From NCBI GenBank assembly GCA_022827625.1, contig JAJEIE010000012.1, positions 62,001 to 126,000 on the forward strand: a stretch of DNA of 64,000 nt. The letters are read 5' to 3'. The DNA is from Candidatus Poribacteria bacterium. Lineage in GTDB: Bacteria; Poribacteria; WGA-4E; WGA-3G. The notes below the pieces were generated by a model that was not told where the DNA came from, did not search any database, and worked only from the letters and a program-made list of their open reading frames with translations. Positions 4,024 through 22,050 of the stretch are shown one piece after another. Positions within the stretch are counted from its first letter, which is position 1; the number at the start of each line of letters is the position of its first letter. The translations under genes and the position numbers were made by a program.

Positions 4024-4998
4024 ATGATCGATAAAAAAATTAGAATTCTTTCGGCTGCCGATGTCCGAGCAGCCTTACCGATGCCCAAAGCAATTGACGC
4101 GATGCGGCACGCCTACGGTCAACTTTCGGCAGGCAAGGCAATTGCACCGCCACGGCAACACGTCTCCACCGACAAAGGCGTTACCCTCATCATGCCAGCC
4201 TATCTCCCCGAACGTAGCGAATTTGGCATCAAGGTCGTCTCGGTCTATGACGATAATCCGAGCCTCAACTTATCTCGGATCACCGCAACAGTCTTAGTCC
4301 TCGATCCAGCCACAGGAACCCCAAAAGCCTTCATGGACGGTGCCAGTCTCACTGCCATCCGAACAGGTGCAGGCGGTGGCGTGGCGGCAGATTTGCTTGC
4401 CCGCAAAGACTCAAAAACAGTTGGACTCTTTGGAGCCGGTGTACAGGCAAGAGCGCAGCTGCAAGCCGTGATGGCAATCAGAGATATTACCTCTGTCAAT
4501 CTTATCAGTCGCACACAAACCTCCGCGCAACAACTCGCCACCCAGATTTCGGAATGGACAGATGCCCCCGAAGTTAATCTGGTATCTACACCACAACAAG
4601 TTGTAGCAGATGCAGATATTGTTTTATGCGCCACGACATCGGCGACTCCACTTTTTGACGGACATGCCCTACAATCGGGGACACATATCACAGCCGTTGG
4701 CACATTCGTCCCAGAGAAACGGGAAGTCGATACCACGACAATAAGGCGAGCACATCGTATCGTCGTCGATTCGCGGGAAGCCTGCTTAGAGGAAGCGGGC
4801 GATCTGATTATCCCAAATGCTGAAATTGATGCTGAAATTGGTGAAATTGTTAACGGCGACAAACCCGGTCGGCAGTCAGACGATGAAATTACGTTCTTCA
4901 AATCCGTAGGCGTGGCGGTGCAGGACGCAGTCGCAGGCGCAGCGATTCTTGCAGCAGCGGAAGCAAAAGGGTTAGGTGTCCTTGCGGACCTCTGGTAG
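4024..4998 (+). CDS. Ornithine cyclodeaminase/mu-crystallin family reductase (delta1-pyrroline-2-carboxylate reductase candidate)
   Basis: A 324-residue OCD/mu-crystallin family protein. The substrate-binding half carries MPAYL, FGIKVVSVYDDNP and MDGASLTAIRTGAGGG. The Rossmann half carries GLFGAGVQARAQL, then LCATTSATPLFDG and GTFVPEKREVDT. Members reduce cyclic imines with NAD(P)H or deaminate ornithine. Placement 111 bases after the enolase-superfamily gene supports reduction of delta1-pyrroline-2-carboxylate to proline. Its last 27 bases overlap the convergent crtW gene. The ribosome binding site is weak. Confidence 0.75.
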   Translation: MIDKKIRILSAADVRAALPMPKAIDAMRHAYGQLSAGKAIAPPRQHVSTDKGVTLIMPAYLPERSEFGIKVVSVYDDNPSLNLSRITATVLVLDPATGTPKAFMDGASLTAIRTGAGGGVAADLLARKDSKTVGLFGAGVQARAQLQAVMAIRDITSVNLISRTQTSAQQLATQISEWTDAPEVNLVSTPQQVVADADIVLCATTSATPLFDGHALQSGTHITAVGTFVPEKREVDTTTIRRAHRIVVDSREACLEEAGDLIIPNAEIDAEIGEIVNGDKPGRQSDDEITFFKSVGVAVQDAVAGAAILAAAEAKGLGVLADLW

Positions 4999-5676
4999 AT
5001 GCCACCACGGAACGTACGGATATTCATGGTGTTCCCAGTGGTAGCCGAAATGATAACAGGTGATAAACGACCAGAATGTCGAATACGCATTGCTCCGCGC
5101 TCGGTGCGGGTTGTCATAGCCACCTTTTGGAGTGCGATGTGGTAGATATGTGCCGAAATAAAATAGCTGCAGCGTACTAAGAAGTGCTGGAGAGACCCAG
5201 AACAGGACCAGATTGAGCGTCGAAATCCGCAAAACATATTCCATAATCTGAAAGACGATCGCCATGCCTACTATCTGTCTCCAACTGAGGTATTCCTTCA
5301 TAAAACGCAGATACCACATTAAGAAACCGCTATGCTCCCCATCGTGAAAATCTGGATCCTTTCCACTGGCAGGCGTTCGATGGTGTGCCCAATGCTTCTT
5401 TAATAATTTGCGATACGAAAATAGGGCATACAACCTGACGGCGATTGTCCCAATCGCATTATTGAGCCCCGGGCGCGCTTGGCAAACCGAACCGTGCATC
5501 GCATCGTGTGCTGTGATGAACAGACCGGTATAGAGGAACGCCTGGCAAAAGACACCCATAGGGACCAACGCGAGGTTCACCCGAGCAATGTCGAGTGTGA
5601 GTAAAATCGCGAGACTCGATCCCCATAGCCCGATAATCATTAGCGCAATGAATAAACCCTTGTTTTTTAATTTCAT
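4972..5676 (-). CDS. crtW: Beta-carotene ketolase CrtW (4-ketolase)
   Basis: A membrane di-iron oxygenase of the fatty-acid-desaturase fold that adds a 4-keto group to a beta-ionone ring. Histidine clusters: HDAMHGS, HWAHH with HRTP, and HWEHHEYP preceded by FGTYLPH; all are typical of CrtW. There are several hydrophobic helices. I start at ATG 5676 (MKLKNKG), which overlaps the cruF stop by 4 bases, so they are translationally coupled; the frame is open further upstream inside cruF. It is the last gene of the carotenoid operon. The 234-residue length fits the family. Confidence 0.9.
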   Translation of the reverse strand: MKLKNKGLFIALMIIGLWGSSLAILLTLDIARVNLALVPMGVFCQAFLYTGLFITAHDAMHGSVCQARPGLNNAIGTIAVRLYALFSYRKLLKKHWAHHRTPASGKDPDFHDGEHSGFLMWYLRFMKEYLSWRQIVGMAIVFQIMEYVLRISTLNLVLFWVSPALLSTLQLFYFGTYLPHRTPKGGYDNPHRARSNAYSTFWSFITCYHFGYHWEHHEYPYVPWWHLPEVRKDT

Positions 5677-6335
5677 AGGCTCTTCAAATCCACCAGTCCG
5701 AAATAGATGAGTTGTGCGAGATAGAGGTGAAACGCGATTTGTGGCAACGGTGGCTGAGAAAATAAACCGATTCTTATGCCAACCGTCGCAAAGACGAAAC
5801 TCAATCCGAACCACGCCAGATAGTTTTGCAGCGGAATACGGTTGTCTACCCACACCCAATAGTCTAATATTACCGCTGCAGGTTCCATAAACAGATCAAA
5901 ACAGACCATTAACACTGCCACACACACTGCCAACGGGATCGTGCTTTTAACTAAGAATTTCGGTGCAATTTTTTGGATGACAGCAACCGAGGCAACCAGC
6001 ATTACAAACCACGCACACCCGATAGAAATTGGCACCCCATCAATCGAAGGACGTAGTGTCTGCCCGTACGTATACGCCCCGAAAATCTTCCCCGTCCGAA
6101 CACCGAGCCATTCAATTCCGACACTACCTACAATAACGAGGACGCTCCAGAGCACAAGTCGCCGTCTTTTCAGTTGTGGGGACACCCGCCAGCACTCCCA
6201 AAAGAGCCAGATCCCTAAACCAAACATCATCGGCGAAGCGAGGACTTGCATGGCTCCTTGGAAAACACCGAGCAGATGCCACAAACCACCCGCCCCTAAA
6301 AGCAGATAAAGTACACCTATTTTTAGTTTATTCAC
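5673..6335 (-). CDS. cruF: Carotenoid 1',2'-hydratase CruF-like membrane protein
   Basis: A 220-residue integral membrane protein of the carotenoid biosynthesis/CruF (bisanhydrobacterioruberin hydratase) family. Recognisable pieces are IEWLGVRTGKIFGAYTYG, followed by D-x-F-MEPAA and Y-W-W helices. CruF hydrates the acyclic psi end of carotenoids to give a 1'-hydroxyl. With CrtD and a single small cyclase upstream this fits a monocyclic carotenoid with a hydroxylated, desaturated psi end. GTG start at 6335. A dispersed repeat lies directly upstream and separates it from the glycosyltransferase gene; transcription may still continue. Confidence 0.8.
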   Translation of the reverse strand: MNKLKIGVLYLLLGAGGLWHLLGVFQGAMQVLASPMMFGLGIWLFWECWRVSPQLKRRRLVLWSVLVIVGSVGIEWLGVRTGKIFGAYTYGQTLRPSIDGVPISIGCAWFVMLVASVAVIQKIAPKFLVKSTIPLAVCVAVLMVCFDLFMEPAAVILDYWVWVDNRIPLQNYLAWFGLSFVFATVGIRIGLFSQPPLPQIAFHLYLAQLIYFGLVDLKSL

Positions 6336-6341
6336 TTTGAA

Positions 6342-6463
6342 TAGTTAATAGTTATCGGTTATCAGTTGTCGGTTAAGACCTACCTATGTAACCAATTTAC
6401 CACGCCTTAGAGGACTCCAAGTTTAGGAGAGATTGTTACAAAGTCCCGCTTAACTGACGACCA
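6342..6463 (-). repeat. Folded dispersed repeat next to the cruF start (family B copy 1)
   Basis: Tandem GTTATCGGTT/ATCAGTTGTCGGTTAAG arms lie next to the cruF start. An inner GTAACCAATTTACC and a distal GATTGTTACAAAG with GCTTAACTGACGACC can fold back on them. Related copies lie at 17555-17703 and 38436-38567, with a partial one at 43251-43300. In the cruF direction it reads TTAACCGACAACTGATAACC and ends about 14 bases before the start codon. Confidence 0.65.
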
Positions 6464-7567
6464 TTAAATCTGTCGTCCCTTCCATTGCAAGCGACCGCGT
6501 TTGACTTGGTAGAATGAATTAATCCCTATCAGTAACGTGAATAAAACACCGAGCGGATGCAAAACCACGCTTGCAAAGAACGGGTGTTTGTATTTTAACG
6601 CCAGTACAGTACGCATCGTAACGTTCATAAAGATAGCAACGAACGACAGTTTCGTAACCGCCCCAAACCAGACGGTGATATAGGGCAAAACGCACATTGT
6701 AAATAGAGCAAGCGTTAGCACAAAAAATGCGACTGTCCTGTAGCGCACCAACCCAAAAAGGTTTTTGGAAAACCCATTCCACACTTCGCCGAACGAATGA
6801 TACATCCGACAAGACACCACACGAGTGCCAGCCGCAGTCAAGATTTTGATACCCTTCTTTTTCGCCAAGCGACTTAACTCAACGTCTTCAACAATCTGAT
6901 TCGATACCGCTTGATGCCCACCAATCTGTTGATAGGCATCGCGGGTAAAGGCAATCCAGAGACCGCTCGCAGCTGCCAGCGATGGAAAACGACTGAAATA
7001 CGTAAGCCATAACGGAAGACCGGCATAAACAAACATATCAACCACCGGGACCACGAGTTTTTCCGCTAAACTTCCCGTTATCTTCTCTGGAAACGCTGAT
7101 AATAACCCAAGCTCAAACTTCTGCATGTAGGCAACAGTATTTGCAATCGCGTTCGGCGCAGGACGGTTATCCGCATCAGTGAAGATGAGTATCTCTCCAT
7201 CCGCATGCTGACTTAATTGATGGCACGCCCAATTTTTTCCCATCCAGCCCGATGGCAGAGACGCACCCCGAATCGCTCGGACCTCAGGATGCCGCGCCGC
7301 GAACGCTTCAATGATTGCACCGGTGTGGTCAGTCGACTGGTCATCAAGAACGTGAATCTCAAAATTGTCGTACTTCTGTGCCAAAAACCCGTCAATACAA
7401 GCACCGATATTGGTTTCCTCGTTCCGAGCGGGGATTAGCACTGAGACACGCGGACAGTTCTGGAGACCGATGGATTTTTTTAGCATCGGTGCAGTCACAG
7501 TATTAAACAAAGTGACTGCCAAAATAACCGCCAGCAAAACTATCGAAATGATTATCAGAGTAAACAA
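6464..7567 (-). CDS. Family 2 glycosyltransferase, carotenoid type (CrtQ/CruC-like)
   Basis: A 367-residue membrane-bound GT-A enzyme. An N-terminal helix precedes SVLIPARNEE, LDDQSTDHTG, the DxD-like FTDADNRPAP and VEDVELS; three or four C-terminal helices follow. This layout matches glycosyltransferases that glycosylate hydroxylated or carboxylated carotenoids (staphyloxanthin CrtQ type). In this operon the acceptor is probably the 1'-hydroxyl made by CruF. The start is TTG at 7567, 11 bases after AAAGG; no nearer ATG would keep the first helix. The acyltransferase upstream could acylate the sugar. Confidence 0.75.
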   Translation of the reverse strand: MFTLIIISIVLLAVILAVTLFNTVTAPMLKKSIGLQNCPRVSVLIPARNEETNIGACIDGFLAQKYDNFEIHVLDDQSTDHTGAIIEAFAARHPEVRAIRGASLPSGWMGKNWACHQLSQHADGEILIFTDADNRPAPNAIANTVAYMQKFELGLLSAFPEKITGSLAEKLVVPVVDMFVYAGLPLWLTYFSRFPSLAAASGLWIAFTRDAYQQIGGHQAVSNQIVEDVELSRLAKKKGIKILTAAGTRVVSCRMYHSFGEVWNGFSKNLFGLVRYRTVAFFVLTLALFTMCVLPYITVWFGAVTKLSFVAIFMNVTMRTVLALKYKHPFFASVVLHPLGVLFTLLIGINSFYQVKRGRLQWKGRQI

Positions 7568-7582
7568 AGCAACGCCGACCTT

Positions 7583-8242
7583 TCAATGTAGCAGATTCAG
7601 TCCCTTTTCTTGACGAAGAATCCGCAGCGCGAGATCCGCTAACAAGGCAGTTTCCGTCTCTTCAAGCCACTCCATTCCGCGAAATGTGTCCGAGTCACAG
7701 ACCTTGATATCCCCGAAGAAAAAAAACACTTCAGGGCGCTTCTCACCGAGAAACTCAGTGCGAATAGCCACCGGTAGAATAGCCACCGGTTTTCCATATT
7801 CTCTCAAAACCCATTCAACACCGCGTTTATAGTCGAGTGGACGCGTGTGCCATGGTAATAATTCGCCCTGCGGAAAAATAGAGATAAGCGGGGTCCCTCG
7901 CTTCAATAATTCAACGGTATATTCCAGCGATTCAACGATACCTTGCCGATGCTTCGGCTCGATTGAATAAGCCCCAATCTTTGCGAAGAACTTGTATTTA
8001 GATAACTGCGCCTCAAGCATCATCAGATAGGCAGTACGTCGAAAAATGCGTTTGTTGAGCAGATAAATAAAGAACCCATCCCACCATGTACTGTGATTCG
8101 GCAGCAATAGCAACGGCAAATGATTCGGAACTTCCGGTAGATCACCCAAGAGCTGGATTGTGTGAAAATGCCGTTTGAATAACCGTGTGAGATATGGTTG
8201 AAAAATAAAATCCGCCCAAAAGCGGTGTTGTGCCTGAATCAT
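7583..8242 (-). CDS. Lysophospholipid-type acyltransferase (PlsC family), probable carotenoid-glycoside acyltransferase
   Basis: A 219-residue acyltransferase with the H-x4-D motif in NHSTWWDG and the substrate-binding motif FPQGEL (FPEG variant). PlsC-family enzymes move acyl groups to hydroxyls. Its place between crtB and the carotenoid glycosyltransferase, overlapping the crtB stop by 4 bases, suggests it esterifies the sugar of a carotenoid glycoside. Membrane phospholipid synthesis is the alternative. The substrate assignment is inference from the operon. Confidence 0.75.
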   Translation of the reverse strand: MIQAQHRFWADFIFQPYLTRLFKRHFHTIQLLGDLPEVPNHLPLLLLPNHSTWWDGFFIYLLNKRIFRRTAYLMMLEAQLSKYKFFAKIGAYSIEPKHRQGIVESLEYTVELLKRGTPLISIFPQGELLPWHTRPLDYKRGVEWVLREYGKPVAILPVAIRTEFLGEKRPEVFFFFGDIKVCDSDTFRGMEWLEETETALLADLALRILRQEKGLNLLH

Positions 8243-9168
8243 TTATTTGTTATTCCAGAGTGAATTGGGAATAGCTTCTCCTGCGCCGATAGGAGCTTCA
8301 TGCGAAGTCCCTCGTGTAGCAAAATCCCAATTTTTTCAATTGATGGCACAAAAACTCGACCTAAAAACGGGTTATAGTCGCGGGTTTCGATTTTTCTTAA
8401 GATACCGCGGTAAATTTTAGCAGCTGAATAAATCGCATACTGTGAATCCGTATTGAGAAGGGAAATCCCCGATATTGCCTCAGCATAATAGTGATCTGCG
8501 CGTTCGACTTGAAATTTTATGAGTGTTTTTAATCGAGGTGTCATTTTCTCTTCCAAAATGTCCTGTTCTGACACACCGAATCGCACCAAATCCGTCTGTG
8601 GTAGGTAGATACGCCCCATCTCCTTATCTTCTTTAACATCCCGCAGGATATTGGTCAGCTGCATGGCAATACCGAGTTGCTTAGCGTAGTCAAACGCCCG
8701 ATCGTCCTTATAACCAAGAATATGCGTCATCATCAAGCCAACAACAGCCGCAGCCCGATAGCAGAAAAGAAATAAGTCATCAAACGTTTTGTACCGCGTC
8801 CGCTGGATATCCATAGCAACACCTTTGAGCAGATCCAGGGGATATGCAATAGGAATTCCATAAGATTTAGCCACAAGAATAAAGGCACGAATGACGGGGT
8901 GTTCGGACTCACCCGTATTATAGGCAATTCGTAATTCCTCTGCCACAAATTGAATTTCTCTAAGCAGATCCGTCTGAGTTCGTTGACGCGGGGTATCAAT
9001 CAAATTGTCGCAGTGTCGGCAGAATCCGTACAAGGCGTATGTTGCCCAACGTTGCTCACTCGGCAGCATCCGTGCGGAAAAATAAAAACTCTTTGAATAA
9101 TAGGCAGTTATCCTGCGAGCATGCTCAAATGCAGCGCGATCTTTGTCTGCTGGTTTCCAGAATTTCAT
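8239..9168 (-). CDS. crtB: Phytoene synthase CrtB
   Basis: Condenses two geranylgeranyl diphosphates to phytoene, the first committed carotenoid step. The aspartate-rich sites are both present: FCRHCDNLIDTP and LTNILRDVKEDKEMGRIYLP. YSKSFYFSARMLP is the usual N-terminal block. The start is ATG 9168 (MKFWKPADK), preceded by a perfect GGAGGAAATATC; an earlier in-frame start lacks such a site. The product has 309 residues, normal for the family. It sits 47 bases after crtI and overlaps the acyltransferase. No GGPP synthase gene is in the window. Confidence 0.95.
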   Translation of the reverse strand: MKFWKPADKDRAAFEHARRITAYYSKSFYFSARMLPSEQRWATYALYGFCRHCDNLIDTPRQRTQTDLLREIQFVAEELRIAYNTGESEHPVIRAFILVAKSYGIPIAYPLDLLKGVAMDIQRTRYKTFDDLFLFCYRAAAVVGLMMTHILGYKDDRAFDYAKQLGIAMQLTNILRDVKEDKEMGRIYLPQTDLVRFGVSEQDILEEKMTPRLKTLIKFQVERADHYYAEAISGISLLNTDSQYAIYSAAKIYRGILRKIETRDYNPFLGRVFVPSIEKIGILLHEGLRMKLLSAQEKLFPIHSGITNK

Positions 9169-9215
9169 GATATTTCCTCCTCTCCAGAAGGATGCCTGAA
9201 AATTGGACATTAAAA

Positions 9216-10697
9216 CTATTCTACCAAATCCTCAACGACCAATTTTACCGTCGTCTCCGCTGTTAGCAGTACGCCTGGCACGCCAGCTCCCGGATGCGTA
9301 CTCGCTCCAACGAAATAGAGTTTTTGTATATCTTCACTTCGGTTATGCGGTCGAAAATATGCCGTTTGTGTTAGCCTCGGCTCAACTCCCCATGCGCTGC
9401 CGAGATGGTTGTTCCGTTGTTTTTTGAAATCTGAAGGTGTAAACGTTTCGAGGACTGCAATCGAACGCTTTAGGTCTGTCAGTCCAAAATCGTTCTCCAA
9501 GAAGGTTAATATGCTGTCAGTATAGGTTCGCTTTATCTTCTCCCAGTTGATACCGCTTTCCAAATTCGGGACAGGAATCAGGACATACATACTCTCACAT
9601 CCTTCGGGTGCCATAGTCGGATCGGTTTGCGAAGGAATATGTAAATACATCGAAAAATCGTCCGACAGGATTTTATTGTCAAAAATGTCGTCTATCAGTC
9701 CCTTGTATCTTTCAGAAAGAATGAGCGTATGATGCTTCAATTGCGGATACTTCTTATTCACACCGAGGTAGAGGAGAAATGCGCTCATTGAATATTGGGT
9801 GCTCCTGAGTTTCTTGTCAGACCATTTTTTACGATGTTCCGGTTTAATAAGTTCTCGGTAGGTGTGTAGCAGATCGGCATTGGAAATAACGGCATCCGCT
9901 TCATAAAATCTCCCTTTCGTCATAACCCCCTTCACTTCTCGATTCTCAACGATAATCTGTTCAACCTCTACATCGGTTTCAACGACACCGCCGAGTTCTA
10001 CGAACACATTTTCCAGTGCTTGAACGAGGTTATACATGCCCCCTTTGCAGAACCAGACACCGCCAGTTTTCTCAAGGTACGGAATCATTAGGTAAACCGC
10101 GGGTGCCCGAAACGGATTGCCACCTATGAATAGTGGATGAAATGAGAAAGTGAAACGGTGGCGCGGGTCGTCAAAATATTTCTTAACGAAGTTGTATGCA
10201 GGCATCAACGCCCGAAGCCGTAATGCACGTGGCAGAAAAGCGAGCATCGTCGGCAAGTCAAATGGTGTCGAACCGAGTCCGTCCGTAATGACAGCATCGT
10301 AGAGCTGACATGTATGCGCCATGAAACGGTCATAGTTAGCAGCGTCATCCGTGTTGAATTGTGCCATCTGCTGTTTCATCTGCTCGCCGTCATCCGTATA
10401 GTCAAGCACTGAACCGTCATGGAAATAGATACGATAAAAAGGATCAAGTTTCACCAAATCAAGGTAATCTCCCATCCGGACACCCGCGCATGCAAAGACG
10501 CGCTGAACCAAGTCGGGCGCGGTAATAATCGAAGGTCCCATATCGAAAGTGTAGCCGTCCCGAACCAGCTGATAGGCATGACCTCCAACCTTCGCGTTCT
10601 TCTCCAGAACCGTGACCTGCATACCTTCAGCCTGCAATCGAATCGCTGCCGCGAGACCGCCAAACCCTGAACCGATGATGACGATTTTCCGCTTCAT
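9216..10697 (-). CDS. crtI: Phytoene desaturase CrtI
   Basis: A FAD-dependent desaturase/isomerase converting phytoene towards lycopene. It starts with a dinucleotide-binding motif (IVIIGSGFGGLAAAIRL), then EKNAKVGGHAYQLVRDGYTFDMGPS. It ends with the family signature YFVGASTHPGAGVPGVLLTAE. I chose ATG 10697 after AGGAAAAGTG; a GTG one codon earlier is possible. The start shares a base with the crtD stop (TGATG), so they are coupled. The THPGAGVPGV ending is CrtI-like, whereas its neighbour ends VHPGGGIPLV, which is CrtD-like. Confidence 0.92.
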   Translation of the reverse strand: MKRKIVIIGSGFGGLAAAIRLQAEGMQVTVLEKNAKVGGHAYQLVRDGYTFDMGPSIITAPDLVQRVFACAGVRMGDYLDLVKLDPFYRIYFHDGSVLDYTDDGEQMKQQMAQFNTDDAANYDRFMAHTCQLYDAVITDGLGSTPFDLPTMLAFLPRALRLRALMPAYNFVKKYFDDPRHRFTFSFHPLFIGGNPFRAPAVYLMIPYLEKTGGVWFCKGGMYNLVQALENVFVELGGVVETDVEVEQIIVENREVKGVMTKGRFYEADAVISNADLLHTYRELIKPEHRKKWSDKKLRSTQYSMSAFLLYLGVNKKYPQLKHHTLILSERYKGLIDDIFDNKILSDDFSMYLHIPSQTDPTMAPEGCESMYVLIPVPNLESGINWEKIKRTYTDSILTFLENDFGLTDLKRSIAVLETFTPSDFKKQRNNHLGSAWGVEPRLTQTAYFRPHNRSEDIQKLYFVGASTHPGAGVPGVLLTAETTVKLVVEDLVE

Positions 10698-12181
10698 CAC
10701 TTTTCCTGATCCTCCGCAATCAATGTCACCGCCATTTTCCCAGACAATATGACCAACGGGATTCCACCGCCCGGATGCACTGAACCGCCAGCGAAATAGA
10801 GTCCATGAAACGTTCGACTCCGATTGGGTATTCGTCTGAACGCTGTGGTTTTGCTATTTGATGATATGCCGTAGATGCTTCCCTGATTGCTGGCATAAAG
10901 TTCAGAAAAATCCTCTGGTGTGTAGACCTGCTCCACTTCAATTTGATCGGCGATGTCAAAACCGAGGCGTTTTAACTTCTCCCAAACAACCGATCGCATC
11001 CGATCTCTCTCTTTCTCCCATATCTGTCCAGGTGTGATATATGGCATATTCAACAACACAAACCAATTTTCGCCAGCAGCCGGTGCGTGTTCGGCGTCCG
11101 CTTTACTCGTTATAGCGATATAGATAGTCGGTTCATCCGGTACTTGTCGGTGTTTGAAAATCTGCTTGAATTCCGCATCGTAGTCGCTGGAGAAGATAAT
11201 GTTGTGGTGCGCTAATTTCGGGTGCTTGGCACGAACACCCCACAGAAATACCATCCCCGATACCGACGGTTCCAACCGATTCAACCTTTCGCGAGGCTTA
11301 TGATGTCCGTCAATCAATTCGTTATATGCTACGACTGCATCCGCACCACAGAGTACGTAATCTGCCTCAACTTTTTTACCATTAACTCGCACACCACTGA
11401 CCCGTTTCCGCTCGTGACAGATTTTTTCAACTTTTGCGGATGTATGGACCTGAACACCTAACTCACACGCTACTTTCATCAGAGCCTCAACAAGACGGTA
11501 TATCCCACCTTTGACGTAATACCCACCCAATCCATACTCGACATACGGAATTATGTTAAGAGTCGCAGGTGCTTGAAACGGATCTGAACCGTTGTAAGTC
11601 GCGTAGCGGTCAAAGAGTTGAATGAGCCGCCGATCTGAGAAAAAACGAGATACACTCTGGTGAACGGTCCGAAACGGATCAATTTGATGAAGCTTGAACA
11701 ACGTCTGAAAATGTCGAGGTTTCATGAGTTTCTTGAACTCATGGATTGGCGTAAACATAAAGATTTCAGATGTTAAGGTATGGATCCGTTCCGCATATTT
11801 CAAGAAACGCTCATACGCTTCGACATCATCAGGGGATAGCTCCTGAATAGCGGCTTTCATCTTCGCTTTGTCAGCACTCGCATCCATCACTGAACCATCT
11901 GAAAAGAAGTATCGGCATATCGGGTCAATCGACACAAAATCGAGATAATCTGCCCGATTGAACCCGGCAAAATCGAACAACTCGTCAATAACAAAAGGCA
12001 TCGTTAGTAACGACGCGCCCGTATCAAATCGGTAGCCGTCCAAAACGGCCTCATTCACCTTCCCACCGATTTTTGGATTCTTCTCGAACAATTGGACAGA
12101 GAATCCCAAGCGCGCCAGACGAATCGCACCACTTAGCGCACCAAGTCCACCCCCAACAACTGCTACCCTCTTATTTTCCAT
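10697..12181 (-). CDS. crtD: Carotenoid 3,4-desaturase CrtD (CrtI superfamily)
   Basis: A 494-residue FAD protein homologous to the next gene: VAVVGGGLGALSGAIRLARLG, EKNPKIGGKVNE, then a C-terminal RIPNRS-GLYFAGGSVHPGGGIPLVILSGKMA. That ending is characteristic of CrtD-type 3,4-desaturases acting on 1-hydroxy carotenoids in Bacteroidetes-like pathways, which matches a CruF hydratase in the same operon. It overlaps the cyclase gene by 11 bases. A second CrtI sharing the phytoene-to-lycopene steps, as in myxobacteria, is the main alternative. Confidence 0.8.
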   Translation of the reverse strand: MENKRVAVVGGGLGALSGAIRLARLGFSVQLFEKNPKIGGKVNEAVLDGYRFDTGASLLTMPFVIDELFDFAGFNRADYLDFVSIDPICRYFFSDGSVMDASADKAKMKAAIQELSPDDVEAYERFLKYAERIHTLTSEIFMFTPIHEFKKLMKPRHFQTLFKLHQIDPFRTVHQSVSRFFSDRRLIQLFDRYATYNGSDPFQAPATLNIIPYVEYGLGGYYVKGGIYRLVEALMKVACELGVQVHTSAKVEKICHERKRVSGVRVNGKKVEADYVLCGADAVVAYNELIDGHHKPRERLNRLEPSVSGMVFLWGVRAKHPKLAHHNIIFSSDYDAEFKQIFKHRQVPDEPTIYIAITSKADAEHAPAAGENWFVLLNMPYITPGQIWEKERDRMRSVVWEKLKRLGFDIADQIEVEQVYTPEDFSELYASNQGSIYGISSNSKTTAFRRIPNRSRTFHGLYFAGGSVHPGGGIPLVILSGKMAVTLIAEDQEK

Positions 12182-12845
12182 CTTTCAGTTTCTCATAGAG
12201 CATTGTGTTAAAAAGCATCAGTGTGAACCCGTACCCGAAATCCTCAATCGGAATTGTCCAAATCCGGTAACCTATCTGATACACCTCACCATACATAACA
12301 ACCGGGCGCGCTGTGAGATAGCCATTGAATACCAAAATCAAACCTGCGACAATTGCGAGATAGAGATAGGTCTTCGGTCGCAGAAGTAGGTCGGTTCTTA
12401 ACAACATATCCATCAATCCAACAAATCCAAAACAGCATAACACCAACCCTGTATACTGTTTACCTGTGCTGAAAACCCATATACCCACGGGCAGTGCAGC
12501 GTATAAAACGTTCCTAATGTGCCGCAGCGACCTCAATCGTGCTAACCACCTATCAACTTGCGGTAGTGTTTCCCATACCAATAAACACCCAAACGGAACT
12601 GTGATGAAAAAGAGCCACTCCTCAATTGGCAGACCGAAGAACCGAAAATCAAGTGTATAGGCTGTGTTGAACTGCCAATGCGAACCAGCGACAAGCGCAT
12701 CCCATATAACGTAAGGAATCATTACAATTACACTTACGAGTAATTTCAATCGCCACCGTGAAACGCTTTTAATTTGGCGGTTGAACTGGGATGCCACGGG
12801 TCCCAGAACAACAATGAGGTTAAACAGAAGATATTCAAATTTCAT
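12171..12845 (-). CDS. crtY: Lycopene beta-cyclase, fused CrtYc-CrtYd type
   Basis: A 224-residue membrane protein with about six or seven helices and two internally repeated cyclase motifs, FGLPIEEWLFFI and TIPIEDFGYGF. These are the paired signatures of the heterodimeric CrtYc/CrtYd cyclases, here in one chain. It closes a beta ring on lycopene; whether one or both ends are cyclised cannot be read, but CruF and CrtD need an acyclic end, so a monocyclic product is likely. Start and stop overlap both neighbours (4 bases upstream, 11 downstream). Confidence 0.88.
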   Translation of the reverse strand: MKFEYLLFNLIVVLGPVASQFNRQIKSVSRWRLKLLVSVIVMIPYVIWDALVAGSHWQFNTAYTLDFRFFGLPIEEWLFFITVPFGCLLVWETLPQVDRWLARLRSLRHIRNVLYAALPVGIWVFSTGKQYTGLVLCCFGFVGLMDMLLRTDLLLRPKTYLYLAIVAGLILVFNGYLTARPVVMYGEVYQIGYRIWTIPIEDFGYGFTLMLFNTMLYEKLKDGK

Positions 12846-13438
12846 CGCTGCGTGCCTGAATGCTGAGATTTCAATCTGTCTCTGAGTGCCAGAAGATAGG
12901 TTTTCTCGTCATGCGTCAATTTTGCTTTCTCAAGCAAGAAAGCAGCGATATTTGCGATGAGTTTCGGATCATAAGTGTGTATCTGCAGCGGCATCCGTTT
13001 AAGGATTTCTTTAAAATCCCGCTGAGCATCGTCCCCCCGCTGGAAGAAAAACGGAAGATGATAACAAGTCATTCCGTGGATAAAGAGTGCCTCAACGTCG
13101 TTTGGACGCTTCTGTAAGCCGCTATCCATAATTGCTAAACCGCGCTTTACCCACTTGAGCTTGGTATGCGGGAGAAATGCGTGCTTGCCTTTAAGGGCAA
13201 CGAGTGCACCGATGTAGACCTCTGCGCGCCCAGCGTATTTTGGTTCCTCTCGCGCAATGCGTTCAAAAAGTTTGAGCGCTGGTTTAATCTGCTTTTTGTC
13301 TTCAACGGCGGCATAAAATTTCTCTCGCGTCCGTTTCAGCATATCTTCCACCGATTCATCCGCGGCGACACCAGTGACATACAAGAGAAAAAGCTGTGAG
13401 AATATCAAGTTTATATGAACAAGTCGATTAAGTTTCAT
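12842..13438 (-). CDS. Secreted helical-repeat (TPR-like) protein of unknown function in the carotenoid operon
   Basis: A 198-residue protein starting MKLNRLVHINLIFSQLFLLYVTGVAADES, a signal peptide. The rest is helical, with TPR-like spacing (KPALKLFERIAREEPKYAGRAEVYIGALVALKG; PNDVEALFIHGMTCYHLP). I do not recognise a family and give it no function. It overlaps idi by 11 bases and the cyclase by 4, so it is firmly within the operon. A periplasmic or membrane-side assembly or carrier role in pigment handling is possible but unproven. A start 33 bases upstream would bury the signal peptide, so I chose 13438. Confidence 0.7.
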   Translation of the reverse strand: MKLNRLVHINLIFSQLFLLYVTGVAADESVEDMLKRTREKFYAAVEDKKQIKPALKLFERIAREEPKYAGRAEVYIGALVALKGKHAFLPHTKLKWVKRGLAIMDSGLQKRPNDVEALFIHGMTCYHLPFFFQRGDDAQRDFKEILKRMPLQIHTYDPKLIANIAAFLLEKAKLTHDEKTYLLALRDRLKSQHSGTQR

Positions 13439-13967
13439 CGGAAAAATTGATTTTTTGGTACTGTTCAACAACCCGATCGAGCGTTAGTTTGAACCAGTAA
13501 GTGTAATTTTCAGGAGTCTCCTGAACATCCTGCTTCAATGCGCTTATGTTCATCCATTTCCAATCGTCAACTTCATCCGGATTTGGCGTGGGTTGACCAT
13601 TATAGCGTCCAATAAAGACCTGATCAAGTTCGTGTTCAAATAGGTTATTCTCGAGTTGGGTGTGATAAATAAAACTAAAAAGTCCAGTTAATTCACAATC
13701 GAAACCCATTTCCTCATTGAGTCGTCGCCTCGCTGCGCGATAATAGCTTTCGCCGGGGCGTGGATGACTACAGCAGGTATTCGTCCAGAGTCCACCGGAG
13801 TGGTATTTTGTCCTTGCGCGTCTCTGAAGCAATAATTCGCCCACAGCGTTAAAGACAAAAATCGAAAATGCACTGTGTAATTTACCTTCACGATGTGCTT
13901 GTAGCTTTTCTTGCGTGCCGATTTCTCTGCCCGTATGATCGACGAGTATGACATGCTCTTGTATCAT
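13428..13967 (-). CDS. idi: Isopentenyl-diphosphate delta-isomerase, type I (Nudix)
   Basis: Interconverts IPP and DMAPP, feeding isoprenoid units to the carotenoid pathway. Type I signatures: the catalytic cysteine block GLWTNTCCSHPRPGE, the metal-binding R-RRLNEEMGF Nudix helix, and ELDQVF-G late in the protein. The length is 179 residues from ATG 13967, preceded by GGAAACGC; an earlier start 12 codons upstream lacks a site. It is the first gene of the carotenoid operon and is read away from carH. Confidence 0.93.
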   Translation of the reverse strand: MIQEHVILVDHTGREIGTQEKLQAHREGKLHSAFSIFVFNAVGELLLQRRARTKYHSGGLWTNTCCSHPRPGESYYRAARRRLNEEMGFDCELTGLFSFIYHTQLENNLFEHELDQVFIGRYNGQPTPNPDEVDDWKWMNISALKQDVQETPENYTYWFKLTLDRVVEQYQKINFSDET

Positions 13968-14035
13968 TGATAGCGTTTCCTTAGTATCGGTATAATTTCT
14001 CAAGTTAAATTAGAGCGTAAATCTCTATGTACATT

Positions 14036-14064
14036 ATTATTACATATTGTCTATATTATGTCAA
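14036..14064 (-). promoter_or_regulatory. Promoter of the carotenoid operon
   Basis: On the minus strand, TTGACA (14064-14059) is followed after 17 bases by AATAAT (14041-14036), one mismatch from each -10/-35 pair overall. The -35 and spacer contain two 11-base repeats of the form nnTnnACAnnn (TCTTGACATAA, TATAGACAATA), the pattern known for CarH operators, so repression would block polymerase directly. Leader to idi is about 70 bases. Confidence 0.65.
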
Positions 14065-14080
14065 GAAAAAATTTAGACAA
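14047..14080. promoter_or_regulatory. Inverted TTGTCTA ... TAGACAA, candidate CarH-family operator
   Basis: TTGTCTA (14047-14053) and TAGACAA (14074-14080) are exact inverted copies over the operon promoter; a further TAGACAA lies at 14211-14217 just before the carH promoter. The shared T-nn-ACA core matches the half-sites expected for CarH/CarA proteins. Confidence 0.5.
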
Positions 14081-14222
14081 TTTTATCGTAAATCAAATTT
14101 TGTATAGAAATTATGTGGAGAAATAGGACAAGATTACGCAACTAATACCCACCACAGATAACCAAATCGAAAGGAAATTAAGATCTTTACTCCGTCTTAA
14201 TCCTAAAATTTAGACAAGATTA

Positions 14223-14251
14223 TTGACAAATAGCAGATATAATGTTATACT
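14223..14251 (+). promoter_or_regulatory. Promoter of carH
   Basis: TTGACA (14223-14228), 17-base spacer, TATACT (14246-14251). It sits 45 bases before the carH start. TTTAGACAAGA and TATTGACAAAT, 12 bases apart, overlap the -35, consistent with autoregulation. The rest of the 328-base divergent region (13968-14295) is AT-rich and holds no gene. Confidence 0.65.
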
Positions 14252-14295
14252 AAATCGTAAGATAACAAGCGGAGAAATAAAAAAGGAAAAGGCTG

Positions 14296-15258
14296 ATGAC
14301 GGATCAACATAAACACGGTATTAAAACTGTTGCCATTCAGACGGGATTAACACAACTTATCATTCGGGCATGGGAAAAGCGGTACAACGTCGTCACACCG
14401 TTGCGAACCGAAACGAATCGTCGTCTCTATTCCGATGCGGATATATCGCGACTCACATTGCTTCGTCTCGCGACTCAGGCAGGACATAGTATTGGGCGAA
14501 TAGCAAACCTATCGACCGAAGAGCTCCTGGAACTCATTGGAACGGGTGGGACGGTTGCGCAGTCCGCTGCAATCGCAAAAGAGGATGTCTCACAGGAAAC
14601 ATCCCTTCATTTTTACATTGCTTCGTGCATCGCAGCGGTTAAAAGATTTGAGATGCAAGCACTCGAATCAACACTATTCGCTGCATCAGTTGCCTTTAGC
14701 CAACCTGTTTTCCTTGAAAAGTTGATCACACCACTGATGCAGGAAATTGGTGAACAGTGGAAAGCCGGAACTTTACGGATCGCACACGAACACCTTGCCG
14801 CCGCAGTTGTACGAACACTATTGGGCAGTATATGCCACGGATCTGAAGTATCCGCCGCAATGCCAAATTTAGTGGTAGCGACACCGCGGGGTCAACTCCA
14901 CGAAATCGGCGCATTAATTGCCGGAACGACTGCAGCATCGCAAGGGTGGCAAGTCACCTACCTCGGTCCCAACCTACCAGCTGAAGAGATTATAGGGTGT
15001 GCAGCGCAAAATGGAGCAAAGGCGATCGGGTTGAGCATCGTTTACCCGACAGATGATCCACATATAGCAAATGAATTAAGGAAAATTCGACGCGGAATTC
15101 AAGAAGATGTTGCACTTTTTGTCGGAGGAGCAGGGGCAATCGCCTACGACTCCGTCATTAACGCTATTGGTGCAGTGAGAATCAATGACATGCCGACTTT
15201 TCGCACCGAACTTGAAGCCTTGCGTGCTCAACAGGCGGTTTCGGTCACTTCGGTATAA
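14296..15258 (+). CDS. carH: CarH-type MerR-family repressor, B12-dependent photoreceptor
   Basis: A 320-residue protein: MerR-like DNA-binding domain (residues ~8-75, with IRAWEKRY and R-Y--D-SRL), a four-helix bundle (~105-185), then a B12-binding Rossmann domain. It has the photoreceptor signature W-x9-E-H (Trp155, Glu165, His166) and the lower-axial cobalamin motif LHEIG (His202). CarH tetramers with adenosylcobalamin repress carotenoid genes in the dark and fall apart in light. From memory, Thermus CarH has an upper-face His right after the Trp; here that residue is Lys156. Divergent placement from the carotenoid operon strongly supports control of it. Start ATG after AAAAGG-like sequence. 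Confidence 0.9.
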   Translation: MTDQHKHGIKTVAIQTGLTQLIIRAWEKRYNVVTPLRTETNRRLYSDADISRLTLLRLATQAGHSIGRIANLSTEELLELIGTGGTVAQSAAIAKEDVSQETSLHFYIASCIAAVKRFEMQALESTLFAASVAFSQPVFLEKLITPLMQEIGEQWKAGTLRIAHEHLAAAVVRTLLGSICHGSEVSAAMPNLVVATPRGQLHEIGALIAGTTAASQGWQVTYLGPNLPAEEIIGCAAQNGAKAIGLSIVYPTDDPHIANELRKIRRGIQEDVALFVGGAGAIAYDSVINAIGAVRINDMPTFRTELEALRAQQAVSVTSV

Positions 15259-17703: not shown

Positions 17704-20700
17704 TCATCTCAAAATATCCTCCGGTCCGTAAGCCTCTGTGAACGTTGTCCAGATGCCCGTCCGCTTATCGAAACGGCTTAATCCACGATACGTGCCAAAC
17801 CAGACGTAGTTATCACCGATAACCATAGAGAGGATACCGTTATGTGCTAAACCTTCCTCTCGGGTGTAAGTCGTCCAATTATCTGTCAACTGCTCAAACC
17901 GACTGACTCCTGCATTGTAGGTGCCGATCCAGACCTCTGTTCCATCAACACCGATGGTGGTTACTTTGTTGCTGGCGAGTCCATCCTCGGTCGTATAGGC
18001 AGCCCAAACATCGGTTTTTTCATTATAGAGCGTCACGCCACGATCACTACCAAACCAGACGCGATCGCCGTCAATCGCGATACAACTGACTTCATCGCTT
18101 GCGAGACCGTCTTCCACCGTGATTGTCTTCCAAATATCTCTACCGATGTCGTATTTACTGACCCCTCGGCGTGTACCGACCCAAACGTGTCTCTTACTGG
18201 CTGTGATACACCAAATCTGGTCCGTAACCAAAGATTCCGCGAACTCTTTAGACACAGCGGAGGGTTGGATCTCCGTCCCCGATGTATAGGTAATCCAAGC
18301 GTTAAGGTCATCTGCTGTGCGTGGGTACTTCCCAATCCCGGAATTGGTCCCGACCCAGATGCTATTGCCATCGCTACTGACAGAAGTTATATTATTGGCT
18401 GGTAGCCCATGCTCAGTTTTGTACTGGTCCCACCGGAGTGCCAATTTATCAAAACGGTTTGCGCCGTCGCGCGTCCCAATCCAGACGTATTGTTCATCAA
18501 CAACAATAGAACTGACCACATTATCGGAAAGTGAATCTTTCTTTTTGCGTCCATGGCGGTGCCAATGGCCCCCGTGCGTTTCTATATTTTCGGATCCACC
18601 CTCCTGCCGATAATTCTTCCAAGTCCCTAACATCTTATCATAGCGGGACATCCCCTCGTCGGTACCGACCCAGACGAAACGTTCATCTGTGTCAACCGTC
18701 CGGACCGTACGTCCAACAAGAATAGGTAGCGCCGTCAAAGGTGTCCAGGATTCCTTCCGCTTGTCATAACGGGAAAGCCCGCGCAAGGTCCCCACCCATA
18801 CATAGTCCTCATCAACAGCGAGCCCGTATTCGCCTACGTGGTTATGGAGAAGCCCTTTGATATCCTTAAACGTTGTCCAGGTGCCAGAGGCGAAATGAAA
18901 TCGTCGAAGCCCTTCATTGGGTGCAGCCAACCACAGATAATCATCATCGGCTGCCAGTTCAAGCGTCCCACGCCCGGATCTGATTGTTGTCCACTCCTTA
19001 TTTCGCCTGTCGTACCGGGTAACACCTACATCTTCCCAGGGTCTGTAAAGTATCCAAACATCCTTCTCTGTTGAGATAATACGCCGAATGGTATTCGCAG
19101 CAAGTACATCATTCGTTGAAAACGTCGTCCATTTTTCCGTTTTCTTATCGTATCGTGATAACGGACGGTTGCTGGTTCTGTCCCATTCCGAACGAGCCAC
19201 CCAGATGAAGTCGTCATCGACAGTAATCCATTCCGCGCCTCTACCCGCCAAGCCGTCTCTGGGTCCGAAATTTTTCCATTCCTGCGTGATTTCATTGTAC
19301 CGCGTGAGTCCACGTCCAGATGCAAACCAGACATTCGGTCCGTCAACTCCAAGTGCATTGATACGTTCAATGTCGCGATGCCCTTCTTCTTCAAGAACTG
19401 TCCATGTCCCAGCCGCTTTGCTATAATGGTTTAATTCCAGCCCGATTATGGGAACAACCCAGACGCTTTGCTCACTGACATCAATCTTACCCACGTCGTC
19501 TGTAGAGAGACCGTCCTCTGAGGTGAAATGCTGCCAGGTATCCGAAGTTTTATCGTAACGGAGAACACCGTAGTCCGTCGTGAACCAGACAGCATCGGTA
19601 TCCACATAGGTCCAACGCACGAGTGTCATGGATCTTTTCTGAGTAGACTTCAAAATATCTAAGCGCGTGAAACGCCGCCACGTTGTTGTTGGACGATGGA
19701 ACCGCACAATACCACCATTCGGTGAAGATTCCCAATTATTAAACCAGATGTAATCGCCATCAAATTTGATGTTTGAGACCTTGGTTTCAAGAAACGGCTC
19801 GCGTACCGGACGGGATTGATGCAACACCTCTCGCCCATTTTTTGCGTCGTACTCAACGAGGCCGATGTCCGTTGCCAACCAGAGTATCCCCTCTGCTTCA
19901 CAGAGAATGCTGCGAATGTTATAGGGCACGGTTGAGCGCGAATTCCAAGAATCGGAAGCACTCGTATAGCTTCCGAGCCCCTGAGGTGTCCCGATCCAGA
20001 GGATGCCATCTTGAAAGGCGAGTGCCGTGACGTTGGGTGATGGCAATTGTTCATTGAAAGGAAGTGGTATCCACCGCTGTTGGGCACTGTTGTACCTTGC
20101 AACGCCTTGACGCGTGCCTGCCCAAAGCGTTTGTTTTCCATTTTCCTCCGTAGAAAGCAACACATTAACATACGGATTCGGGAGCCCTTGAATAGCGGGA
20201 TGCATTGCCTGATCAGCGACCGAATATCGCCAAATACCCGCTGCGCCACCAAACCAAACATTTGCCTGATCGGCGAGTACAGATAGTATGAGCGGGTTCT
20301 TGACCCCCGGCAGCGCAAGTTGTGACCATTCTTGAGAGGTCGTATTATACACCGCGGGCCCGGAGCTTGTACCGAGCCAAATGCGTTGATCCTGCGATGC
20401 AACATCCGCATCAACAGATGTCACAAAAGCCTCGCCCCGTGTTTGTGTGTGAGGTGGGGCCCGAAACGCCCACTCACCGTCTAAATATGTCCGTGTGCCA
20501 AGCCCGCGATCGCTTCCAATCCAGATGGCTGTCGGAAACCTTCGGTTCTCGGTTTTCGGTAAAGAGGTTTCAGATGCCTCCACACCCTCTTGCTGCCCGC
20601 TGACGGTTTCCGACGACTGATAGCCAATATGTATTGATGTGATATAGGGAGTTGGCAATCCATCTTCTTTAGAAATGATTTCCCAACTGCGCGTTTGCGG

Positions 20701-22050
20701 CGTGTAAACCGAAACCCCGCCGACTGTCGCTATCCAGAGGTTTCCATCCGCATCACGTGCGATATCCCGTACATCATTGTCGGCGAGAAAATCGGCTTGT
20801 TTGTAAAGCGTCCACTCACCGGTTACCTTATCAAAGCGGCTCACCCCATCCTCTTTGCTCCCAAACCAGACATCATTGCCTTGTATGGTAATCCAACTCA
20901 CATGATCACTCGATAATCCATCTGCCTTGGTATAGTGTACCCATGTGTTAACAGGCTTGATAAAACGATGTACACCTGCGTTGGCAGTTCCAAACCAGAC
21001 CTGGAACCCATCGGCACGGATACAGGTAATCATATTACTTTTCAGGAGATCCGTTTTTGTATAGGTTTTGATGAAGGTCTGATCGACCTGATTGTATTGA
21101 CTAACCCCTTTGTTCTGAGTACCAAACCAAACGCTGTCATCATCGACAGCAATCGTAGCGATCTCGCTGTCTATTAACCCATCAGATTTCGTATAGTTGT
21201 TCCATGAATCGGTATCTCGGTGGTAGCGGCTCACCCCGCCTCTGCTGAACCTTGGGTCTTCGTCCCAGCCATGCGGATCCGGATTTATCTCTCTATCGGT
21301 GCCAATCCAGACGTATTCCGGTTCAACGGCGATCGTTGTAATTATTTTGCTAACCAACCCATCTTTCCGAGTACGTACCGCCCAACTGTCAATCGTTTTA
21401 TCATATCGGTTCAATCCGTCCGCTGTTCCAAACCATACGTAATTTCCGTCGACTGCAATAGAGGAGACCTGGTCGCTCGCCAAGCCGTCAATAGTTCGGA
21501 AGGTCGAAAAGGCGTTTGTTTGCATATCGTAGCGGCTCACTCCCTCATCTGTAGCGAACCAGACCCATTGTCCATCAATTGCAACGGCATTGACCACATC
21601 ATTCGCCAACCCGTCTTCCATGGTATAGTGTAGCCACGTATCCTGCTGGCGATCCCAGCGCGAGACGCCCCTCGCCGTTGCAATCCATACATTGTCCACA
21701 TCCGCAGCAATACAGTTAATTTCGTTACTAACGAGTGTTCGTTCCACGGGCCACGTCTTTGCAGGCACCGAATTTGCTCCGGAATCTTCAAATGGCATCC
21801 CGGATTGTCGGTCAGTTGCTAATGTTCCACACCCCAAAATCAGAAACAGGGACAGCAACACTAAAATACAGGTGTTAGAAAATCTGTAAAGTGTTCTAAA
21901 ATCTGTAAAGTTGTAAAGTTGTTTCAGGTTACGTCTCAGCTTTACAGAACTCCTCCACGCGTCGCCTGAAAGGGGCAAACCGACTTTAGCACACTCGCTG
22001 CTTTTCACAAGCGACCCTTGCGGCTTATTATTATCTGTTCGTTTCGTCAT
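17704..22050 (-). CDS. Giant beta-propeller lipoprotein with ~29 Reg_prop repeats
   Basis: A 1448-residue protein made almost wholly of two-component-regulator-propeller type repeats: V-W-F/I-G-T-x-x-G-(V/L)-S-R-Y/F-D ... W-x-x-Y/F-T-x-x-D-G-L-x-x-(D/N)-x-(V/I). I count about 29 by eye, enough for several seven-bladed propellers. A hydrophobic stretch at residues ~60-72 ends in LILGC, a lipobox, so it is probably an exported lipoprotein. In known systems such propellers sense sugars in front of histidine kinases, but no kinase domain is attached. The ~57 residues before the signal are unusually long and partly derived from an intergenic repeat. ATG 22050 follows AGAGG. Confidence 0.85.
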   Translation of the reverse strand: MTKRTDNNKPQGSLVKSSECAKVGLPLSGDAWRSSVKLRRNLKQLYNFTDFRTLYRFSNTCILVLLSLFLILGCGTLATDRQSGMPFEDSGANSVPAKTWPVERTLVSNEINCIAADVDNVWIATARGVSRWDRQQDTWLHYTMEDGLANDVVNAVAIDGQWVWFATDEGVSRYDMQTNAFSTFRTIDGLASDQVSSIAVDGNYVWFGTADGLNRYDKTIDSWAVRTRKDGLVSKIITTIAVEPEYVWIGTDREINPDPHGWDEDPRFSRGGVSRYHRDTDSWNNYTKSDGLIDSEIATIAVDDDSVWFGTQNKGVSQYNQVDQTFIKTYTKTDLLKSNMITCIRADGFQVWFGTANAGVHRFIKPVNTWVHYTKADGLSSDHVSWITIQGNDVWFGSKEDGVSRFDKVTGEWTLYKQADFLADNDVRDIARDADGNLWIATVGGVSVYTPQTRSWEIISKEDGLPTPYITSIHIGYQSSETVSGQQEGVEASETSLPKTENRRFPTAIWIGSDRGLGTRTYLDGEWAFRAPPHTQTRGEAFVTSVDADVASQDQRIWLGTSSGPAVYNTTSQEWSQLALPGVKNPLILSVLADQANVWFGGAAGIWRYSVADQAMHPAIQGLPNPYVNVLLSTEENGKQTLWAGTRQGVARYNSAQQRWIPLPFNEQLPSPNVTALAFQDGILWIGTPQGLGSYTSASDSWNSRSTVPYNIRSILCEAEGILWLATDIGLVEYDAKNGREVLHQSRPVREPFLETKVSNIKFDGDYIWFNNWESSPNGGIVRFHRPTTTWRRFTRLDILKSTQKRSMTLVRWTYVDTDAVWFTTDYGVLRYDKTSDTWQHFTSEDGLSTDDVGKIDVSEQSVWVVPIIGLELNHYSKAAGTWTVLEEEGHRDIERINALGVDGPNVWFASGRGLTRYNEITQEWKNFGPRDGLAGRGAEWITVDDDFIWVARSEWDRTSNRPLSRYDKKTEKWTTFSTNDVLAANTIRRIISTEKDVWILYRPWEDVGVTRYDRRNKEWTTIRSGRGTLELAADDDYLWLAAPNEGLRRFHFASGTWTTFKDIKGLLHNHVGEYGLAVDEDYVWVGTLRGLSRYDKRKESWTPLTALPILVGRTVRTVDTDERFVWVGTDEGMSRYDKMLGTWKNYRQEGGSENIETHGGHWHRHGRKKKDSLSDNVVSSIVVDEQYVWIGTRDGANRFDKLALRWDQYKTEHGLPANNITSVSSDGNSIWVGTNSGIGKYPRTADDLNAWITYTSGTEIQPSAVSKEFAESLVTDQIWCITASKRHVWVGTRRGVSKYDIGRDIWKTITVEDGLASDEVSCIAIDGDRVWFGSDRGVTLYNEKTDVWAAYTTEDGLASNKVTTIGVDGTEVWIGTYNAGVSRFEQLTDNWTTYTREEGLAHNGILSMVIGDNYVWFGTYRGLSRFDKRTGIWTTFTEAYGPEDILR

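Follow-up and report, generated by a model that had tools for sequence, protein, structure and literature searches.

A probable CarH-controlled divergent promoter region between carH and a carotenoid operon of Candidatus Poribacteria

carH and the divergent carotenoid operon

The window analysed here is a stretch of 64,000 nucleotides (G000:C20:62001-126000) from a 5.02-Mb assembly of an uncultured, sponge-associated Candidatus Poribacteria bacterium. Within it, carH diverges from a ten-gene carotenoid operon on the minus strand (13967 down to 4972; Table 1), whose genes, judging from strand and spacing, are presumably carried on one transcript. The carH relatives from named genomes come from Poribacteria MAGs at 13 of 13 loci. 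The encoded protein scores above the cut-offs of Pfam families PF13411, PF02607, and PF02310, corresponding to a MerR domain and both B12 domains, and its best structure match, by sequence as well as by fold, is the CarH of Thermus thermophilus (TtCarH; fold match to PDB 5C8F, E = 3.7e-15). Its score against the NCBIfam equivalog model NF052513 (TransRegCarH) is 111.7 bits, below the curated cut-off of 400.

Table 1. Predicted genes, promoter elements, and cobalamin-site codons around the carH–idi intergenic region, in window coordinates.
Feature	Position	Strand	Remarks
CrtW beta-carotene ketolase	4972-5676	-	Above NCBIfam cut-off
Acyltransferase, GT2 (CruG/HpnB-like glycosyltransferase), CruF-like hydratase	5673-8242	-	
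Phytoene/squalene synthase (CrtB-like)	8239-9210	-	
Two CrtI-family desaturases	9216-12181	-	CrtD-like 10697-12181; CrtI-like 9216-10700
Lycopene cyclase	12171-12845	-	
209-aa protein without Pfam match	12842-13471	-	Conserved between idi and lycopene cyclase in relatives examined
idi (NUDIX, isopentenyl-diphosphate isomerase-like), operon gene 1	13428-13967	-	Pfam NUDIX
Operon -10 hexamer AATAAT, extended TG	14036-14041	-	Conserved in 20 aligned relatives (shifted 2 bp in L030)
Predicted CarH repeat TAGACA in -35/-10 spacer, operon side	14048-14053	-	TAGACA 19/20, TATACA 1/20
Predicted CarH repeat TTGACA = operon -35 hexamer	14059-14064	-	
Half-site B, TAGACAA (TATACAA in most relatives), inverted to operon repeats	14074-14080	+	Other strand TTGT[AC]TA in 17/20, 15-16 bp upstream of -35
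Conserved element A, TTTCTATACAAAAT	14097-14110	-	Core 42 bp upstream of operon -35; TATACA core 20/20
Predicted CarH repeat TAGACA, 12 bp upstream of carH -35 repeat	14211-14216	+	
Predicted CarH repeat TTGACA = carH -35 hexamer	14223-14228	+	
Degenerate third repeat slot CAGATA, carH side	14234-14239	+	Strict TnnACA in 11/20 relatives
carH -10 hexamer TATACT, extended TG	14246-14251	+	
carH, 320 aa: MerR DNA-binding domain, B12-binding helical and Rossmann domains	14296-15258	+	Pfam; TtCarH best match, sequence and fold
Codons W155-K156	14758-14763	+	TtCarH W131-H132
Codons H164-E165-H166	14785-14793	+	TtCarH E140-E141-H142
Codon H202, lower axial B12 ligand	14899-14901	+	TtCarH H177; alignment

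Linkage to carotenoid genes, a trait of CarH circuits, is evident both in the divergent idi-crt operon and in the co-occurrence of CarH and CrtI across the class. Among 82 genomes of the class, CarH (called at E <= 1e-20) was found in 28 and CrtI (called by the first desaturase, E <= 1e-60) in 29; 25 genomes encode both, three CarH only, four CrtI only, and 50 neither (Fisher P-value = 8e-14, not corrected for shared descent). Two of the four CrtI-only genomes are assemblies under 85 per cent complete. One genome (G013, locus L122) has kept carH without carotenoid genes and has no tandem TnnACA pair in 14 kb.

With one adenosyltransferase of the PduO type and one cobalamin riboswitch in the genome, a supply of adenosylcobalamin (AdoCbl) is plausible. 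This riboswitch, the sole one found in the genome (L047:1501-1689 = G000:C21:18717-18905), precedes an open reading frame that has weak beta-propeller/dockerin matches and is not an obvious B12 gene. No RNA family was found by Rfam in 13900-14400. Elsewhere in the window, positions 17704-22050 encode a 1448-aa protein with many W-F/W-G repeat units that, by eye, resemble two-component-regulator propeller repeats.

Divergent promoters and TnnACA repeats

The region at 14036-14251 (72 per cent A+T) holds two divergent sigma70 promoters, each matching 11 of 12 consensus positions, with a 17-bp spacer and an extended -10 TG. On the operon strand, the -35 hexamer TTGACA is followed 11 bp on, within the spacer, by TAGACA; on the carH strand, TAGACA lies 12 bp ahead of the -35 hexamer TTGACA. 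Tandem 11-bp TnnACA repeats over the -35 or -10 are a trait of CarH operators, and the window thus has them at 11 bp on the operon side and at 12 bp on the carH side. The initial annotation had described sigma70-like promoters carrying such repeats at these two spacings, and both the coordinates and the shuffled sequences bear this out: at least two tandem pairs arose in a fraction of 0.0002 of 5000 dinucleotide shuffles, and none of the 5000 placed promoter-embedded pairs on the two strands at once. The exact operator pattern occurs once in the 5.02-Mb genome. A wider regulon was considered and set aside: allowing one mismatch gave five further sites, which are scattered among unrelated genes and, by eye, have no recognisable light or B12 gene nearby, and we claim no further targets from these searches, exact or with one mismatch, which would miss weaker operators.

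The operon-side pair is well conserved. The gene idi is in view in 22 of the 28 CarH-encoding genomes (in the other six, carH or idi is off-contig, or the stretches fetched hold no crt operon or no idi beside it), and 20 of the 22 carry the strict pair. The exceptions are G034, in which different, repeat-like DNA (L022:2440-3160) stands in place of the operon promoter and of the 5' half of idi, and G039, whose contig extends 214 bp upstream of idi and has no pair there. Across 20 aligned operon promoters from CarH-encoding relatives, conservation is 100 per cent at the fixed positions of TTGACA and TnnACA, compared with about 68–76 per cent in flanking DNA, and variation in the second repeat is confined to a free nn base (Table 1).

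On the carH side, the -35 repeat is TTGACA in 19 of 20 promoters and TAGACA in one. The same 20 promoters have a second strict repeat at -12 (six promoters) or at +11 (11 promoters), never at both, and at neither in three; L018, which failed the alignment pattern used for this count, also carries the -12 repeat. As read from these alignments, the 12-bp spacing is a trait of the window's clade, with the repeat register differing by clade, and the site slots seem to have been exchanged while the -35 repeat stayed in place.

The pair also tends to go with CarH. In two genomes that have crt genes and no CarH (G064 and G067), the stretches fetched show no TnnACA pair spaced by 11 or 12 bp upstream of idi, although both genomes retain idi, the 209-aa gene, and the lycopene cyclase gene; the association between operon pair and CarH has P-value = 0.02, a weak test with two negatives only. 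More distant, order-level CarH relatives (G058, G061, and G063; about 40–45 per cent identical) have no strict 11- or 12-bp pair before carH, which limits the operator argument to the window's family. A genus-wide pattern search also matched CarH-less genomes, with unlike spacers, and reversed-pattern controls gave a similar background, so that search alone proves little. As a positive control, the same scan before the carH of Thermus thermophilus HB27 returned TGTACA-11-TTGACA-11-TATACA, and before that of T. brockianus TTGACA-11-TAGACA; both species have a divergent crtB-carH layout as well as a like repeat grid.

Upstream of the operon -35 lie two further elements. An inverted pair, TTGTCTA/TAGACAA, had been singled out in the initial annotation; it is indeed present and exact in the window (14047-14053 / 14074-14080), but we reject it as a conserved palindrome in itself, because the second arm drifts among the 20 aligned promoters. 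The arm that matches 14074-14080 reads TTGTCTA in two (the window and L024), is TTGTATA in 15, and is broken in three, a pattern that fits a further TnnACAA half-site (half-site B) better than a conserved palindrome. Element A (CTATACAAAAT) lies 30–43 bp, mostly 40–43 bp, upstream of the operon -35 among the 20 genomes, and the window's 14-mer, TTTCTATACAAAAT, has a single exact copy in the 5.02-Mb genome. Elements A and B form an imperfect inverted repeat (CTATACAAAA-N-TTTTGTATA), which is perfect over 11 bp in L036; in L030 the distance from A to B is about 11 bp shorter, that is, by one helical turn. The core of element A, TATACAAA, was not seen upstream in the stretches examined from the two crt-bearing genomes that have no CarH, so element A goes with CarH. 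By analogy with the upstream inverted repeat of myxobacterial operators, element A may be a further CarH contact; it may also be the site of another factor.

Cobalamin-site residues of poribacterial CarH

The residues W155-x9-E165-H166 and H202, noted from the sequence at the outset, align with W131, E141, H142, and H177 of TtCarH. We aligned 25 of the 28 CarH proteins (leaving out G037 [Lys], G097 [frame-split], and G061 [split]). The Trp and His of the adenosyl-contacting Wx9EH motif occur in all 25 and the Glu in 24, leaving the motif whole in 24, and the lower-ligand His202 is present in all 25. In G097 (L114:658-1576), and also in L016, carH runs in two frames near residues 151-162, inside Wx9EH, either through a frameshift or through an assembly error.

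The initial annotation was also correct in placing Lys156 where TtCarH has His132, and the substitution is lineage-wide: this position is Lys in 13 of the aligned proteins, Arg in nine (22 of 25 together), Gln in two, and Ser in one, and never the upper His of the TtCarH subtype. The salt bridge of the TtCarH dimer, Arg176-Asp201, is likewise absent from all but one protein, the pair reading Leu/Asn in 20, His/Asn in two, and Arg/Asp, Ile/Asn, and Ala/Asn in one each (n = 25); the lone Thermus-like Arg/Asp pair belongs to G036, which also has Gln156. At the position of TtCarH Glu140, 24 of 25 proteins have His164. The interchange of Lys and Arg within the genus would make it less likely that Lys is a specific ligand of cobalt. 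The AlphaFold model of the window CarH is of moderate confidence (pLDDT 73, with residues 160-185 under 50), and we therefore do not use it to place Lys156 or His164 in space.

Variation at the upper-ligand position extends beyond Poribacteria. Eight homologues were fetched from plasmid records, counting the HB27 TtCarH; of the seven others, T. brockianus has His after the Trp, five with the motif have Q, A, A, E, and A, and the Gemmatirosa protein is without the motif. An upper His is thus not general in the wider family.

Relative to characterised systems, the window CarH shares with TtCarH (PDB 5C8D/E/F) the MerR and B12 domains, Wx9EH, and the lower-ligand His, but is about 28 per cent identical and differs at His132 (Lys156), R176/D201 (L201/N226), and G160 (E184). 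The T. thermophilus crtB-carH operator likewise combines a divergent carotenoid gene with TTGACA-11-TATACA around the -35, whereas the third strict repeat is missing from the window or displaced to 12 bp. The TtCarH light state is reported to use the upper His, and its H132A variant to remain mostly tetrameric in the light (PMC10442372). CtMerR of Chloracidobacterium thermophilum (PDB 8JBS/8JBT) also has no upper His and keeps the Trp, Glu-His, and lower His; it differs in a DNA-binding domain that is diverged by the paper's account and in having Arg where the window has Lys (PMC11796333). Its anaerobic light structure is described as showing no bis-His state, and native MS and SEC-MALS as following a transition from tetramer to monomer in light (PMC11796333). 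Myxobacterial CarH/CarA and their Pcrt operators, as described in PMC9304148, share the 11-bp TnnACA repeats, both strict and degenerate, a -35 inside a repeat, and an inverted repeat upstream of the -35, but the grid is longer (mostly four to five repeats), many of the proteins have His after the Trp, and CarA has lost the Trp of Wx9EH. The same source describes for Bacillus megaterium CarH repeats that overlap the -35 or -10, as in the window, but four in number and with a dimeric light form. Within the collection of papers searched, none named both 'Poribacteri' and 'CarH' and, judged by the titles and abstracts listed, none reported Lys at the upper-ligand site.

A candidate light switch and its alternatives

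The region was initially annotated as a light/B12 control region. A CarH-controlled divergent promoter is indeed its best reading, given the motif, the synteny, the co-occurrence, the Thermus positive control, and the published in vivo light induction of like genes in Poribacteriota, and we consider it likely that a CarH circuit has its bidirectional operator-promoter here, in which both promoters are repressed in the dark and relieved by light. In the dark, AdoCbl-bound CarH oligomers would occupy the tandem TnnACA repeats that include the -35 of each promoter and would block RNA polymerase at the carotenoid operon (idi to crtW) and, by autorepression, at carH. Green or blue light would break the Co-C bond, CarH would fall apart or loosen, and its release would let both strong promoters fire. 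With Lys at residue 156, and Arg in many relatives, a TtCarH-type bis-His light state cannot form via this position. The light state is instead expected to be CtMerR-like, with water or hydroxide on the cobalt and adenosyl loss driving disassembly, and the conserved His164 may have a role in it. Because the window CarH resembles CtMerR in having no upper His, release by light remains its expected behaviour. The earlier suggestion that the upper-ligand photochemistry could differ is reasonable on the sequence comparison, with CtMerR as precedent. As compared here, the system is a lineage variant of the known CarH switch, variation at the upper ligand having already been published for CtMerR (Arg; PMC11796333).

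Several observations weigh against the CarH-circuit reading. Each promoter has two strict repeats, one of the pairs at 12 rather than 11 bp, and the NCBIfam equivalog score falls below its cut-off; operators with one or two strict repeats are known (PMC9304148). The Arg-Asp bridge is missing in 24 of 25 proteins, and TtCarH H132A is reported to stay mostly undissociated (PMC10442372). Finally, G058, G061, and G063 have no pair before carH, G013 has carH without crt genes or operator, and G039 has crt genes and CarH without the pair.

The H132A result and the loss of the bridge are also what would favour a CarH that, having Lys where the upper ligand would be, binds both promoters without being released by light and serves to sense B12 (or oxygen/redox) or to repress constitutively in the manner of CarA. 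We regard this as unlikely: CtMerR, with Arg, is reported to monomerise in light (PMC11796333), Wx9EH is whole in 24 of 25 proteins with an invariant Trp that CarA has lost (PMC9304148), and Poribacteriota carotenoid genes are reported to be light-induced in situ (PMC12879404).

Light control of the operon might also be exerted mainly by another factor at elements A and B (CTATACAAAA-N-TTTTGTATA), leaving CarH to control mostly carH. In its favour, element A is conserved in 20 of 20 promoters with an exact 14-mer that is unique in the genome, and the centre of the A/B arms falls upstream of the operon -35, where activators can bind. Against it, the TnnACA word of the CarH repeats recurs in element A, and the core TATACAAA was not seen upstream in the two CarH-less, crt-bearing genomes examined. 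On this comparison, in which the search for other regulators covered the neighbouring genes, such a division of labour is improbable. That the repeats are mere promoter hexamers, with TTGACA serving as -35 beside a chance TnnACA and no regulator involved, can practically be dismissed even though TTGACA is itself a TnnACA word and the region is A+T-rich, as no shuffle gave pairs on both strands, all 20 aligned promoters retain the spacer repeat with changes confined to the free nn base (TAGACA/TATACA), and the two operon-bearing genomes without CarH have no such pair upstream of idi.

Within the preferred CarH-circuit reading, a more specific proposal, which we put forward tentatively, is that poribacterial CarH switches with neither a bis-His state nor an Arg-Asp bridge, these being replaced by Lys/Arg156 and the lineage-typical His164. 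In that case neither the oligomer formed in the dark nor the ligand on cobalt in the light state (water/hydroxide, Lys, or His164) would be like that of TtCarH. If true, such a switch would account for the rise of Poribacteriota carotenoid transcripts by day that has been published for living sponges. A study of Aplysina aerophoba by diel metatranscriptomics reports a daytime peak for the Poribacteriota transcripts of lycopene cyclase and IDI, and higher transcript levels of phytoene desaturase, lycopene cyclase, and IDI in Poribacteriota bin44 under light (PMC12879404). The window operon encodes enzymes of the kinds induced in bin44, the likeness being one of enzyme kinds. The main text of that study mentions none of CarH, MerR, LitR, or a repressor and ties the induction to no regulator, and the CarH switch would be a concrete candidate cause of daylight carotenoid induction in these symbionts. 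Poribacterial CarH proteins also offer a natural series of Lys, Arg, Gln, and Ser at the upper-ligand position for probing whether light-driven disassembly needs a bis-His state, a question on which TtCarH H132A, with mostly no dissociation (PMC10442372), and CtMerR with Arg, which dissociates (PMC11796333), point in different directions.
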